From: a virus
Length of the DNA stretch: 22,410 bases
Direction: 5' to 3' (one strand)
Virus record (IMG/VR): IMGVR_UViG_3300022752_000425
Coordinates: 1-22,410 of that record
Below are positions 577-5,152 of this stretch, one piece after another. Each line of letters begins with the position of its first letter. Within the stretch, counting starts at the first letter, position 1. The position numbers and the translations under genes were made by a program. Under the pieces are notes generated by a model, which saw nothing but the letters and a program-made list of their open reading frames with translations, was not told the DNA's origin and ran no database searches.

Positions 577-1953
577 CTACTTTGCTCCCATTACTTGGTT
601 CCACTTCTCTTTGAGAACTTTCTTGCGATCACTTTCGTCCTGCTGAAGACTCTCAGACAGTGTCAAGCTGTTCTCATCCAAGATTCGAATCTTAGAACGT
701 GCAGTGTCAATGTGAACAGGGAAGAGTATTCCATCCCTTCCTGCGCGATTTTTTGCGACAAATAGTCTACCCTGGCCTGTCGCCTTCTCAGTTGGCTTTC
801 GAGAAAGTGAGAGGACAACGTCAGCAACCATTGCCTTGCCGTAAGACTCTGACATGTTCTCAAGCCCTACGATGTCAGAATTGGAAGAGTCACGGTTGGC
901 CTGTGAAGCAGTCCAGATTGGGATGGCCCTCTCCATGGCGAGGTTGCGAAGATCCTCGTAGATAAGCTTCAGTTCGAGGCGGAGAGCATCGTACTCACGA
1001 CTGGATCGCATGATGTCTGCGTAGTCAATGATTATCACGTTAGGCACGAATCCCCGTAGCGCCAACTTCTCGAGGTGGTTTCTGATTGTCGCCACAGAAC
1101 AGCTTCCTGTCGGGTACTCCTTGATGATGAGCCTTCCCATCTCCATCTCTGAGTACTTCTGCATGACCTCCTGCTTGGCGTCTTGCACCTCGTTCGAAGG
1201 AATGTTGGTGAGGTTGGAGTCGTAACGAATCCCTACAGCAGTCTCAGTCAGCTCGAACGTGTAGTGCAGGACATTCTTACCGAGACGTAGTGCATGGGCA
1301 CCGAGCTGAACCAGCATGTGGCTCTTTCCAACGCCAGTGTTCGCAGCAATCACACCGAGTTCACCCTTGCCGAGACCACCGTTGAGAACTGTCTTCTCGT
1401 CAATCTCATCAATTCCAGTGGGACAAGCAAGACGGTTGATCTTCACAAACCTCGCCTCTGCATCCTCAAAGAAGTCATGACCGACAGAAGTGGGAAGACC
1501 GACTGAGACTGCCTGTTTCATAGTGTCCAAGACAGCGTCGTACTTGTCCTGGGAGATTAGCTCAACCGACTTCTCAAGCGCCTCCTTCATTGCCTGCTTT
1601 CGGCAGAAGTCAAGGCTCTTCTCCTTGATGTACTCAAGGTCACCAGTGCTGGGATTAGAGCGCAGACGACTGAGGAACTCTACCACCTGTTCTCGGAGGA
1701 CTGCGTTGTTGTCGGCCTTGAGCTCATCCTTGATGATGGAGATGAGGAGCTGCATCGTTGGGAAACAGCGATACTTCTGGTGGTACTTGAAGTACTTGTC
1801 GCTGAGGTATGCGAGATAGCGTAGATCGAAATAATCAGGCTGCATCACCTCAGAGATCTGAGCAGCCCATGTATGATCTGTCAACAGACCCGCAAAGATT
1901 CCCTCCTGGAAGTGCTTTCCATACGACTTGAAGAGGGCTTCGTTCTCACTCAT
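577..1953 (-). CDS. dnaB: Replicative DNA helicase, DnaB/T4 gp41 type
   Basis: This 458-residue hexameric-helicase protein would unwind the replication fork 5'-3' and recruit a primase. The N-terminal 160 residues form a helical domain of the DnaB N-terminal kind. The RecA-like motor follows: Walker A AANTGVGKS (203-211, K210), a catalytic Glu region in YTFELTE (231-237), Walker B NVIIIDYADIM (305-315, D310) and the TASQANRDS motif (348-356) typical of DnaB. The length matches the family (about 450-480). Its ATG overlaps the TAA of the exonuclease gene (TAATG), and GGGAAG lies a few bases upstream. It forms one run with the exonuclease and ribonucleotide reductase, a sensible fork and precursor group. 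No primase is visible in the window. Identification is secure; whether it is closer to DnaB or gp41 is not decided. Confidence 0.95.
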   Translation of the reverse strand: MSENEALFKSYGKHFQEGIFAGLLTDHTWAAQISEVMQPDYFDLRYLAYLSDKYFKYHQKYRCFPTMQLLISIIKDELKADNNAVLREQVVEFLSRLRSNPSTGDLEYIKEKSLDFCRKQAMKEALEKSVELISQDKYDAVLDTMKQAVSVGLPTSVGHDFFEDAEARFVKINRLACPTGIDEIDEKTVLNGGLGKGELGVIAANTGVGKSHMLVQLGAHALRLGKNVLHYTFELTETAVGIRYDSNLTNIPSNEVQDAKQEVMQKYSEMEMGRLIIKEYPTGSCSVATIRNHLEKLALRGFVPNVIIIDYADIMRSSREYDALRLELKLIYEDLRNLAMERAIPIWTASQANRDSSNSDIVGLENMSESYGKAMVADVVLSLSRKPTEKATGQGRLFVAKNRAGRDGILFPVHIDTARSKIRILDENSLTLSESLQQDESDRKKVLKEKWNQVMGAK

Positions 1954-2837
1954 TATGACTTCCCGATGTTTGCTGTGACTTGTAAGTAGAATCTATCAAT
2001 GTCGAACGTTTTTACACCGCACCTGACCAGCGTGCGAGTAAGCTCAAATTTGTTTGCGTGAGGCAGGCTAATCTCGTAGGAAGACTGCAACTTGCCAAGC
2101 TGTGAACCACTAAGATTCGAGATATCGAGGTGCATCAGCCTCCAGTTTCTCAGTGCTATCTCAGAGTGGTCAACTATTTCCTGTATGACTTTCACTCTAT
2201 TTCTGTGGGGATGAGATTTTGCAGCTTCTACTATCTCTTCCACCGTGACATCCCTGTCTTCAGCAAGTGCAGGGAATCTCTTGAGGAGTGTCTTGAAACC
2301 GAGCCCCTTCAGGCCAGGCAGGGAGTCAGAAGAGTCTCCTGAGAAGCACCTGGCTACGCAAAGGTTTCTGGGCATTACTCCGTACCTTCCTTTCACCCAC
2401 TCTACGTCAACGTCATCTTTTAGGGTAGGAGACCAGACTGTAACCCTATCACTGACAAGCTGGAGGTAGTCGTGATCCGAAGAAACTATCTTCACGCGCT
2501 TGTCTGAGTAGTGATACTTTGCGAGATACCCAATAACATCGTCAGCCTCACAGTCAGAGATATAGATCTGTCTGATTGGAAGACACTTGAGACAGGCTAT
2601 GAGAGACTTGACTTGCCAGTTCCTATTCTCCACTGTGTCAGGTATGTCACCTTCGTGGAACCTATTGAGCTTCACGGGCTTTCGCCTGCTCTTGTACTCC
2701 GGGTAGATGGCCCTCCTCCTGAGAGAACCACCACCTTCCCATACGATGACGCACTCTGTTGGTCTCAATCTCCACATCAGTGCGCCGAGAGACTGCAAGA
2801 ACCCTACAATTCCTCCAACGTGGTTTCCATCCGCCAT
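1953..2837 (-). CDS. 5'-3' exonuclease / flap nuclease (RNase H-like), open part of the frame
   Basis: This is a FEN/PIN-type 5' nuclease, the enzyme that removes RNA primers and flaps. From the ATG at 2837 it has 294 residues. Acidic metal-site blocks are present: an EGGGS segment (about 34-38, where many relatives have Asp), CEADDVIGY (about 96-104), SSDHDYLQL (about 118-126) and the helix-hairpin-helix-type stretch GDSSDSLPGLKGLGFKTLL (168-186). The family's first block, an N-terminal Asp-Gly followed by an N-L-F helix, lies upstream of this ATG in the same frame but is separated by a TAG at 2879-2877. The ATG at 2837 has no recognisable ribosome site and would start after the catalytic Asp. 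So the gene is either broken, decoded unusually, or misread in sequencing. It overlaps the helicase start by one base. Confidence 0.85.
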   Translation of the reverse strand: MADGNHVGGIVGFLQSLGALMWRLRPTECVIVWEGGGSLRRRAIYPEYKSRRKPVKLNRFHEGDIPDTVENRNWQVKSLIACLKCLPIRQIYISDCEADDVIGYLAKYHYSDKRVKIVSSDHDYLQLVSDRVTVWSPTLKDDVDVEWVKGRYGVMPRNLCVARCFSGDSSDSLPGLKGLGFKTLLKRFPALAEDRDVTVEEIVEAAKSHPHRNRVKVIQEIVDHSEIALRNWRLMHLDISNLSGSQLGKLQSSYEISLPHANKFELTRTLVRCGVKTFDIDRFYLQVTANIGKS

Positions 2838-2915
2838 GAGAGGGTTGGCAGTGAAGTTACGAATGAAGAGGTTGAACTAAAGACCATCAAGTAGAAGCAC
2901 TGGCCTCTCGTTGAT
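2838..2915 (-). other. In-frame N-terminal segment of the exonuclease interrupted by an amber codon
   Basis: Reading the exonuclease frame upstream of 2837 gives INERPVLLLDGL, then TAG (2879-2877), then FNLFIRNFTANPL, then the annotated ATG. The flanks look like one conserved 5'-nuclease N-terminus in which a continuous DG(L/M)N-L/T-F-I/L-R would be expected. Relative to that pattern there is an extra six bases (TAG plus one sense codon). The Asp of LLLDG is the expected first metal ligand. The segment overlaps the last residues of the homing endonuclease gene. Possible in-frame starts are ATC at 2915, GTG at 2921 or GTG at 2900; none is an ATG. Confidence 0.75.
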
Positions 2916-3885
2916 GGTCACCTCCTCTATATCTTGAAATGACATTCTCGATTGCTCCGTGAAAGTCAAAAGTTAGATCATACTGCCATATCACATCGAT
3001 ATTATACCCACGAGATTTTGCAAGTTCAAGCTTCGCAGAGTCTCTCTCCCAAATCTCGGAGGCTTCCACTCCTCTGTGCTTGTCGTAGTGATCTGCTTCA
3101 TAGATTGAGGGATTGAGGTGCCAGTAGTCGCCATTGACCTCAATGAGAAGATTGAGCTCTTCTATGAAGATGTCATAAACTCTTCCCAAGACCCTGTAAG
3201 AGTGTCTGCACTTGTAGCGAGAGGAGATCTCATCAAAAACTTTCATTTCTAGTTTGCTTCTCCACAAACCATTCCCACTATCAAACGCTCCACGTTCCCA
3301 CATTTTCTTTGCAGCGTGTGACATAAGCACTTTTGAAGCGTCTGAGTGTTTCTTCCCCAAGTTCCAATTTTGACCACCTCTCACATAGAACCTCTTTCTA
3401 GAGAGACTCATCTTTTCTTTCGTCTCAGCTGAGTGTGAGACCCTTTTTCTGCCTTTCATCTTTTCAGAAAAAGACTTATAGACACCACTCTTGATCTTGG
3501 TTTCTTTTGCGAGAGATGCTCCTCTGAGATATGACTCTTTGGTTCTCAAGGGACCTTGCGTAGCGATGCGTTCTCTAAGTGAAAGTGAGATTTTTTGTTT
3601 TGTCGTCTCGTTTCTGATCTTCCCAGAATTTCCCTTGGATATCTTAGACTTTGTATCATCAGACATGGGACCACGAGTGCTGCCAAGATTTGCTTTGGCA
3701 GCAGCAGTAGTGAACCTGGTTATTCTCGTCTTTTTTGCTATCTCAGCATAGCACTCAGCACCGAGACTCTCCTTGAGAACTTTAACAGTCTTGTTCCTTC
3801 CACACTTCCACAGGACTCTAACCTCTTCGATTGTTGAGCCCTGTGAAAATTTCAGAATCCCTAGTGCAAGTTCTTCTTCAGTCAT
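2887..3885 (-). CDS. Free-standing homing endonuclease, NUMOD3 repeats plus Vsr-like nuclease domain
   Basis: This 332-residue selfish nuclease would cut a sequence in related phages lacking it and spread by repair. The N-terminal 60 residues look like a helix-turn-helix recognition segment. Residues about 70-195 hold at least three lysine/serine-rich NUMOD3-type DNA-binding repeats (MSDDTKSKISKGNSGK at 74-89, HSAETKEKMSLSRK at 151-164, KHSDASKVLMSHAAKK at 179-194). The C-terminal 120 residues carry a Vsr/EDxHD-type nuclease core: SKLEMKV (E213), VYDIFIEE (D238) and LLIEVNGDYWH (E249, D253, H256). AGGAG lies 7 bases before the ATG. The gene fills the space between uvsX and the exonuclease, appears more AT-rich than its neighbours, and its 3' end overlaps the exonuclease N-terminal frame. 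I saw no second exon upstream, so it is not obviously intron-borne. Confidence 0.85.
   Translation of the reverse strand: MTEEELALGILKFSQGSTIEEVRVLWKCGRNKTVKVLKESLGAECYAEIAKKTRITRFTTAAAKANLGSTRGPMSDDTKSKISKGNSGKIRNETTKQKISLSLRERIATQGPLRTKESYLRGASLAKETKIKSGVYKSFSEKMKGRKRVSHSAETKEKMSLSRKRFYVRGGQNWNLGKKHSDASKVLMSHAAKKMWERGAFDSGNGLWRSKLEMKVFDEISSRYKCRHSYRVLGRVYDIFIEELNLLIEVNGDYWHLNPSIYEADHYDKHRGVEASEIWERDSAKLELAKSRGYNIDVIWQYDLTFDFHGAIENVISRYRGGDHQREASAST
2918..2926 (-). promoter_or_regulatory. Near-perfect Shine-Dalgarno AGGAGGTGA before the exonuclease N-terminal segment
   Basis: On the minus strand AGGAGGTGA matches nine bases complementary to the 3' end of bacterial 16S rRNA. The core GGAGG is 5 bases from ATC at 2915, which occupies the place where a start codon would be expected in the exonuclease frame. 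It lies inside the end of the homing endonuclease gene, so it probably predates that gene's arrival as the exonuclease ribosome site. Confidence 0.7.
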
Positions 3886-3937
3886 TCTTCTACTCCTGTC
3901 GTAAGTATTAGAAAGAACAACTAGAAACTAACTTATG

Positions 3938-5152
3938 TCACTCCGGAGAAACCATCTCTCCACCCTCGATAAGGAGATCAGCTACGGCCTTCACCTCCTC
4001 ATAAGACTCGGGGTCGATGTCAACATTCTCACTGTTAGAACTAGTCCTCACCATGGCCTTCTCAAGGAGGCCATCCACCCAAGGCTTGTATTGTGGGTCG
4101 TTCATGATTTCCTTGAAGTCAGACTTGTAGAACTTCTTCTCTACAATCTTCACATTCTTCTCGTTGACGACCTCCAACTTCTTCCAAGAACCTGTGCCTT
4201 CCACAGTGACCTGATGATCGTTGACCATGTCAGGACCGTGCTCACGGAGAAGATCAAACAGTTCCTCGTGCTCCTCGATCCCCTTTCCGAAGATGATCCT
4301 GAAGTTTGCAGAACGGAAAGGGAAGGCGACCTTGTTCTTGATGGTCTTCGCAGAGACGTGAATGCCGAGAACCTCCTCCTTGGGACCCTTGATCTGTTGA
4401 CCGGCACCGAGCTTGATTCGAACCGATGAGTGGAAGGGCACTGCATTACCGCCAGGCGTCGTGGTGGGGTCACCGTACATCACGCCGATCTTCGTGCGAA
4501 TCTGGTTGAGGATGACGAAGAGAACGTTCTGATCACCGATGACACCCGTGATCTTTCGCATACCCTTCGAAAGCACACGGGCCTGGAGACCGATCGTGTT
4601 CTGGTCGTACTCTCCGTCAAGCTCAGCCTTCGGGCTAGTGGCTGCAAGAGAGTCCCAGATGATGGTGATCGGGACATCCTTTGCCATTGTCTTTGCCTTC
4701 AGGATAGTCTTCTCTGCGATATCAAAGACCTCCTCAGTGCAGTGTGTGTCAACGTAGACGAAACGCTTTGAGATGTCAACACCGAGTGCCTGGAGGTTGT
4801 CCGGGTTAGTGGCATTCTCGGTGTCGATGTAGACAGCGATCCCGCCCATCTTTTGGGTGGAACGGCAGACTTGCGCAGCAAAGTGGCTCTTTCCGATGGA
4901 AGGCGGACCAAAGACCTCCACAATTCGACCTTCGGGAAGTCCTCCATTTGAACGGTTAGAGATGATATAGTCGAGCCCTCTCGAACCTGTAGAGATCCAA
5001 CGCTTCACGTGTGTTGGTGACTGGTCGGAGGCCAGGTTGTATGCGACCTTGTGACCGAGATCACGATTAAGAGAATTGATGAGGTCAGCGGTGAAGTCTT
5101 CCTGCTGCTGATGCACACCGTCGCTATCAATCACTACCTTCTTCTTTGCCAT
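3938..5152 (-). CDS. uvsX: RecA/UvsX recombinase
   Basis: This 404-residue strand-exchange ATPase supports recombination-dependent replication and repair, working on ssDNA coated by the gp32-type SSB encoded just upstream. Walker A is GPPSIGKS (82-89; RecA usually has GPESSGKT), the catalytic Glu lies in DTENATNP (E112), Walker B is TIIWDS (163-168). The DNA-binding L2 region NQIRTKIGVMYG...TTPGGNA (216-237) is very close to bacterial RecA. In these motifs it looks more RecA-like than T4 UvsX does. The C-terminus is acidic. AGGAGA sits 5-6 bases from the ATG, confirming the start. A promoter lies directly upstream and a terminator separates it from ssb. It ends with TGA, 52 bases before the homing endonuclease. 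Confidence 0.95.
   Translation of the reverse strand: MAKKKVVIDSDGVHQQQEDFTADLINSLNRDLGHKVAYNLASDQSPTHVKRWISTGSRGLDYIISNRSNGGLPEGRIVEVFGPPSIGKSHFAAQVCRSTQKMGGIAVYIDTENATNPDNLQALGVDISKRFVYVDTHCTEEVFDIAEKTILKAKTMAKDVPITIIWDSLAATSPKAELDGEYDQNTIGLQARVLSKGMRKITGVIGDQNVLFVILNQIRTKIGVMYGDPTTTPGGNAVPFHSSVRIKLGAGQQIKGPKEEVLGIHVSAKTIKNKVAFPFRSANFRIIFGKGIEEHEELFDLLREHGPDMVNDHQVTVEGTGSWKKLEVVNEKNVKIVEKKFYKSDFKEIMNDPQYKPWVDGLLEKAMVRTSSNSENVDIDPESYEEVKAVADLLIEGGEMVSPE

Follow-up and report, generated by a model that had tools for sequence, protein, structure and literature searches.

Efficient natural bypassing by ribosomes is so far known essentially from gene 60 of phage T4 and from some yeast mitochondria. 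Gene 60 is a topoisomerase gene with a 50-nt out-of-frame gap and GGA codons, found in T4 only, and the homing endonuclease gene (HEG) beside it is mobA (PMC5009743, PMC3014915, PMC2988022); the idea has been reported that the gene 60 insert protects against the nuclease of this HEG (PMC5009743). Synthetic stop hops feature matched codons around a stop, with nine nucleotides decoded as one amino acid (Weiss et al. 1987, as described in PMC5009743). A 2016 review recorded in-frame stop hopping from synthetic constructs and no known natural occurrences (PMC5009743), and we found no later reports of natural stop hops in the open-access literature.

The window analyzed here, a 22,410-nt stretch of viral DNA (IMG/VR record IMGVR_UViG_3300022752_000425), carries on its minus strand genes for a gp32-like protein, UvsX, an HEG, an exonuclease and a dnaB-like helicase, in this order, with all parts of an interrupted exonuclease locus on that strand (Table 1). 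The exonuclease starts at an ATG (2945-2943) within the 3' end of the HEG, and the segment that codes for its DG motif runs into an amber codon, as the initial annotation had recognized: read from this ATG, LLLDGL is followed by TAG, TTC and AAC (Asn, 2873-2871), after which the frame stays open to 1953. A GTG at 2921 was rejected as an alternative start, as it is not conserved in the related locus L067. Once six nucleotides are skipped, the hallmarks of the 5'-3' exonuclease/FEN-like family are all present: the N-terminal DG, an Arg seven residues on and an EADD motif. In nucleases of this family, the Asp of the DG segment is a metal-site residue. The view that six bases had been inserted likewise held: relatives without the TAG lack exactly those six nucleotides (TAG and TTC), and in 24 HEG-less relatives, which came from an unbiased search and whose exonucleases are 43-96% identical, the D(G/A/S)x-N motif is uninterrupted. 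That annotation had missed the hairpin, the actual ATG within the HEG, the recurrence elsewhere and the many HEG-less carriers described below.

Table 1. Features of the interrupted exonuclease locus in the window
Feature	Position	Strand	Remarks
uvsX/RecA-like gene	3938..5152	(-)	Pfam RecA, E=1.7e-65; immediately upstream of cassette
Inferred mobile cassette	2874..3937	(-)	1064 nt, from just past uvsX stop to landing codon; drawn from L079/L070, L002 and L326/L306
HEG	2887..3885	(-)	NUMOD3 repeats, E=1.4e-9; phrog_3339 homing endonuclease, E=3.6e-6; putative C-terminal EDxHD/Vsr-like domain (alignment A1)
Exonuclease, first part	2877..2945	(-)	ATG + 22 codons MSFQDIEEVTINERPVLLLDGL to ..LLLDGL, then TAG; overlaps HEG 3' end
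Hairpin, 5' arm	2911..2919	(-)	GACCAUCAA; fold z = -4.7; covariation
Hairpin, 3' arm	2882..2890	(-)	UUGAUGGUC; includes first base of take-off codon
Take-off codon CTT (putative)	2880..2882	(-)	Leu of DGL motif
In-frame stop TAG	2877..2879	(-)	interrupts exonuclease frame
Landing codon TTC (putative)	2874..2876	(-)	CTN in 38/39 representatives; window the exception, with one mismatch to the Leu anticodon
Exonuclease, body	1953..2873	(-)	resumes at AAC (Asn); Pfam PF02739, 5'-3' exonuclease N-terminal domain, E=2.4e-24; phrog_107 exonuclease

In all, 80 loci of environmental T4-like phages were found to be interrupted in this way at this codon; they comprise 39 non-redundant exonuclease genes (hereafter representatives), and 117 loci lack the interruption. 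Homologs of the window's HEG (47-51% identical) in other phages adjoin exonucleases with this interruption; degenerate DNA scans then revealed it in many T4-like gp32-uvsX-exonuclease-dnaB loci. It is a minority allele, present at 2 of 80 loci in a profile search independent of the motif, and the nearest INPHARED phage records (Microcystis phage Mel-JY01, Flavobacterium phage immuto and LR756508) lack the stop. In 37 of the 39 representatives, the stop is preceded by an in-frame ATG; the remaining two have little sequence on that side. A scan of bacterial and archaeal genomes with the motif gave 93 matches, with none in an exonuclease context among the matches listed. When 2.2 Mb were scanned blindly for XYN-stop-XYN preceded by a flush stem of at least 8 bp, 36 of the 40 sites were the exonuclease site, all with the CU box, the scanned loci having been collected partly for the motif. 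Chance does not account for the interruption: its position, its stop-plus-codon arrangement and a conserved hairpin upstream are shared by divergent phages, which come from many separate samples.

The codons flanking the stop are strongly constrained. With search patterns that demanded a CTN take-off codon, this codon was CTT in 35 representatives, CTG in three and CTC in one; a separate scan demanding TTA or TTG in its place returned 22 contigs, none with an exonuclease. The stop itself varies (TAG 21, TGA 10, TAA 8). The landing codon, for which the patterns imposed no CTN restriction and allowed TTA and TTG, was CTC in 13, CTT in 12, CTG in eight, CTA in five and TTC in one, namely the window; an additional locus (L328) has GTA. 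Thus, take-off and landing codons share the CUN box in 38 of 39 cases and are identical in 15. A C follows the stop in 38 of 39, and the residue after the landing codon is Asn in all 39. Whereas 38% of uninterrupted genes use TTA or TTG for the homologous Leu, the landing codon never does (P about 8e-9 over the 39 representatives and about 7e-6 over 25 lineages). This constraint follows the codon box and thus points not to the amino acid but to a single tRNA family that re-pairs. The window, reading CUU-UAG-UUC-AAC with U rather than C after the stop, is a less typical member than most on account of its UUC landing codon, and its copy of the site could be weak or in decay.

Directly upstream of the take-off codon lies a hairpin. 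A flush stem of at least 6 bp precedes this codon in 41 of 44 distinct interrupted loci, as judged by their upstream sequences, against 17 of 106 loci without the stop; stems reach 18 bp in the former, while 89 of the 106 uninterrupted genes have 5 bp or less. Pairs 1-5 are formed in 38 of 38 sequences, and pairs 0, 3, 6 and 8 covary, a signal on which controls by shuffling and by sliding agree, though the positions of the arms had themselves been chosen by pairing. Compensatory changes are seen at one stem pair, which is A-U in L027, G-U in L029 and G-C in L028. In L028, the compensatory change GATTGA to GATCGA at the 3' end of the HEG (about 3994-4236) abolishes the HEG stop and lengthens its frame by some 80 codons.

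Several further features of this region were noted. Within 2865-2927 (minus strand) of the window, GAGGAGGU, 5' of the hairpin, has a second potential pairing partner in ACCUCUUC past the landing site; this pairing would enclose the stop. Eight uninterrupted genes (L228, L230, L232, L236, L237, L247, L250 and L021) have stems of 12-14 bp just before the DG(L) codon, which may be remnants of a stop since lost or may form a hairpin that serves some other role. A search with the hairpin pattern by itself otherwise matched unrelated genes. The length from start to stop varies and the sequences differ between lineages, with no common nascent peptide of the gene 60 kind to be seen. A Shine-Dalgarno-like AGGAGG before the hairpin was discarded as a general signal, being present in the window-type group and missing from others. 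Suppression of synonymous change before the stop was strong in the group with HNH HEGs (pS 0.125 vs 0.73) and absent from an HEG-less clade (0.55 vs 0.53); we read it as recent co-transfer and not as RNA constraint.

The interruption is linked to HEGs. The HEG alignment A1 displays an invariant E-N-G-D-Y-W-H block, with no match to the Pfam EDxHD model or to PDB entries. Among carriers, 18 of 35 have a same-strand HEG in the gap before the exonuclease versus 1 of 84 others (Fisher P = 8e-11), and these HEGs are of at least two kinds, EDxHD-like and HNH/NUMOD3. Of the uninterrupted genes, L233 alone has an HNH HEG on the same strand in this gap (620 nt), and the frame of that HEG looks shortened. 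Three pairs of sequences indicate the limits of the cassette. Phages L079 and L070 are otherwise about 84% identical, but over the stretch that begins at the uvsX stop and ends with the landing codon they are 99.5% identical; a tract spanning -1076 to +7, numbered from the stop, has five differences, against about 16% of positions on both flanks, the first downstream difference falling at +8, the third base of the Asn codon. In L326 versus L306, homology begins exactly at the landing codon. A blastn alignment of the window with the uninterrupted L002 covers uvsX, breaks off shortly after its stop and resumes at the Asn codon, with nothing aligned between. By the tract shared between L079 and L070 and by the linkage to HEGs, the HEG and the putative bypass site move as one unit. 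On the exonuclease tree, a quick method required 25 changes of state, 18 of them forced by well-supported branches.

At least 13 interrupted representatives have no adjacent HEG, and thus the HEG is not needed for the stop to persist. These HEG-less carriers mostly have a normal gap, with 85-118 nt between the uvsX stop and the recoding stop, and a clade of six such representatives has kept the stop, its flanks and the stems though about half of its synonymous sites differ. The suggestion that the six bases are a scar of endonuclease invasion therefore stands in so far as they form the 3' edge of a cassette, and fails in that carriers devoid of an HEG retain them. Other arrangements of the region were also seen. 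A TAAGTTA motif after the uvsX stop marks the left edge of window-type cassettes (3928-3937 in the window; also L027, L030, L067 and L070). In nine loci (L035, L038, L046, L049, L052, L053, L054, L059 and L061), uvsX is split at residue ~225-237 by related HEG sequence, which suggests an intron or intein. Upstream of the uninterrupted exonucleases of L031, L032 and L033, a related HEG is found in reverse orientation.

The best explanation for this locus, which we consider probable on comparative grounds, is a mobile HEG cassette with a programmed in-frame stop hop at its 3' end; comparative data likewise favor, among the options raised in the initial annotation, the short bypass modeled on T4 gene 60, here of six nucleotides. 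The cassette, inserted with uvsX on one side and the exonuclease's conserved active-site codons on the other, would comprise the HEG, its own copy of the 5' end of the exonuclease, the hairpin, the stop and the landing codon, with the six nucleotides as its 3' edge. The peptidyl-tRNA-Leu of the ribosome would hop six nucleotides in frame over the stop, from CUN to CUN, as we infer by comparing sequences. Folding of the hairpin would perhaps act in the way suggested for the gene 60 5' stem-loop (PMC5009743). By analogy with gene 60, the insertion would probably also split the target site of a presumably active HEG and so protect the allele that carries it. Somewhat less firmly, we think it likely that this is the first natural in-frame stop hop, on a mobile cassette that spread among environmental T4-like phages with at least two kinds of HEG, put a stop and a codon into the active-site segment of the replication exonuclease, was tolerated by way of the hop and persists without an HEG, perhaps as a resistance allele.

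Downstream of the stop, the bodies of interrupted genes have dN/dS of 0.04-0.24, at synonymous divergence up to saturation, indicating purifying selection. An Arg follows the Asp by seven residues in 39 of 39 interrupted genes after removal of the six nucleotides and in all uninterrupted genes; the same spacing is seen in Taq and other solved relatives, with which the N-terminal segment of L002 aligns without gaps. Only a six-nucleotide skip restores this spacing. Programmed readthrough, by which a near-cognate or suppressor tRNA would read the stop and add two residues (DGL-X-L-N), is on this account unlikely, as the added residues would break it. It does fit the RNA structure and the Leu or Phe codon that always comes next in the representatives; a stop followed by CU is a leaky-termination context exploitable by readthrough, and the prevalent C after the stop is itself a weak termination context. 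Yet the flanks do not change with the stop, be it UAG, UAA or UGA, and the absence of TTA and TTG on both sides is not explained by a constraint on the amino acid. Further, no suppressor tRNA was found in two phage contigs, the 171.5-kb L079 phage, with 20 tRNAs, and the 102-kb contig of L099, in which no tRNAs were found; all three stops end long frames in both. Amber readthrough, as initially envisaged, is thus in conflict with the three stop types, the codon-box constraint and the active-site spacing.

Expression in two parts, with termination followed by re-initiation to give either a split enzyme or a shortened nuclease without the N-terminal Asp, has the window's ATG at 2837 to recommend it, 14 codons past the stop. 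That start, considered earlier, is not conserved: depending on lineage, 3 to 132 codons separate the stop from the next in-frame ATG, which is often well inside the nuclease domain, and the upstream DG segment, with its presumed metal-site Asp, is intact and hairpin-paired, making this reading highly improbable. Slighter still is the chance of a pseudogene, the exonuclease having been inactivated by HEG invasion; the stop does fall within the active-site segment, with an HEG adjacent in about half of the cases, but for the family as a whole recurrence and purifying selection exclude it, and stop and hairpin persist in the HEG-less clade of six. HEGs are often housed in group I introns, and splicing could remove the HEG region from the RNA; against this, there is no Rfam match around the gene, no upstream exon (the 5' end of the exonuclease lies downstream of the HEG), and the gap in HEG-less carriers is short, leaving an intron hardly credible. 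An equally negligible chance attaches to a sequencing or assembly error in the window. The exact window junction has no other copy in IMG/VR and is known from a single contig; the same architecture nonetheless occurs in independent assemblies, including near-identical interrupted contigs from separate samples, and this recurrence excludes an assembly error for the family.

Should the mobile cassette with its stop hop be borne out, the rules of hopping could be tested by comparing its dozens of natural variants, which differ in take-off codon, stop, landing codon, stem and loop, and annotation pipelines will miscall interrupted exonucleases as truncated. The RF2 gene (prfB) has a frameshift site, CUU UGA C, at which a +1 shift is aided by a Shine-Dalgarno sequence. 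The exonuclease site shares its P-site codon and stop context, but would achieve a net +6 and has a hairpin instead. As in the synthetic stop hops, matched codons flank the stop and nine nucleotides would yield one amino acid; the synthetic cases were engineered reporter constructs. Like the byp elements of Magnusiomyces mitochondria, the six-nucleotide inserts would be bypassed within genes and occur in many copies; the byp elements differ in being mitochondrial, in numbering 81 across many genes, and in their unused A-site codon, independence of context and near-matched codons (PMC5009743). The resemblance to T4 gene 60 and mobA extends to an in-gene insert beside an HEG in a T4-like phage, a stop after the take-off codon, matched take-off and landing codons, an upstream stem-loop and the idea of a protective insert. 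Unlike gene 60, the insert described here is of six nucleotides and in frame, uses Leu CUN codons, lies in an exonuclease gene and is found in dozens of phages, with varied N-terminal peptides and other HEG families. Were the stop hop borne out, the alliance of an HEG with a bypass typified by gene 60 would have arisen elsewhere too.
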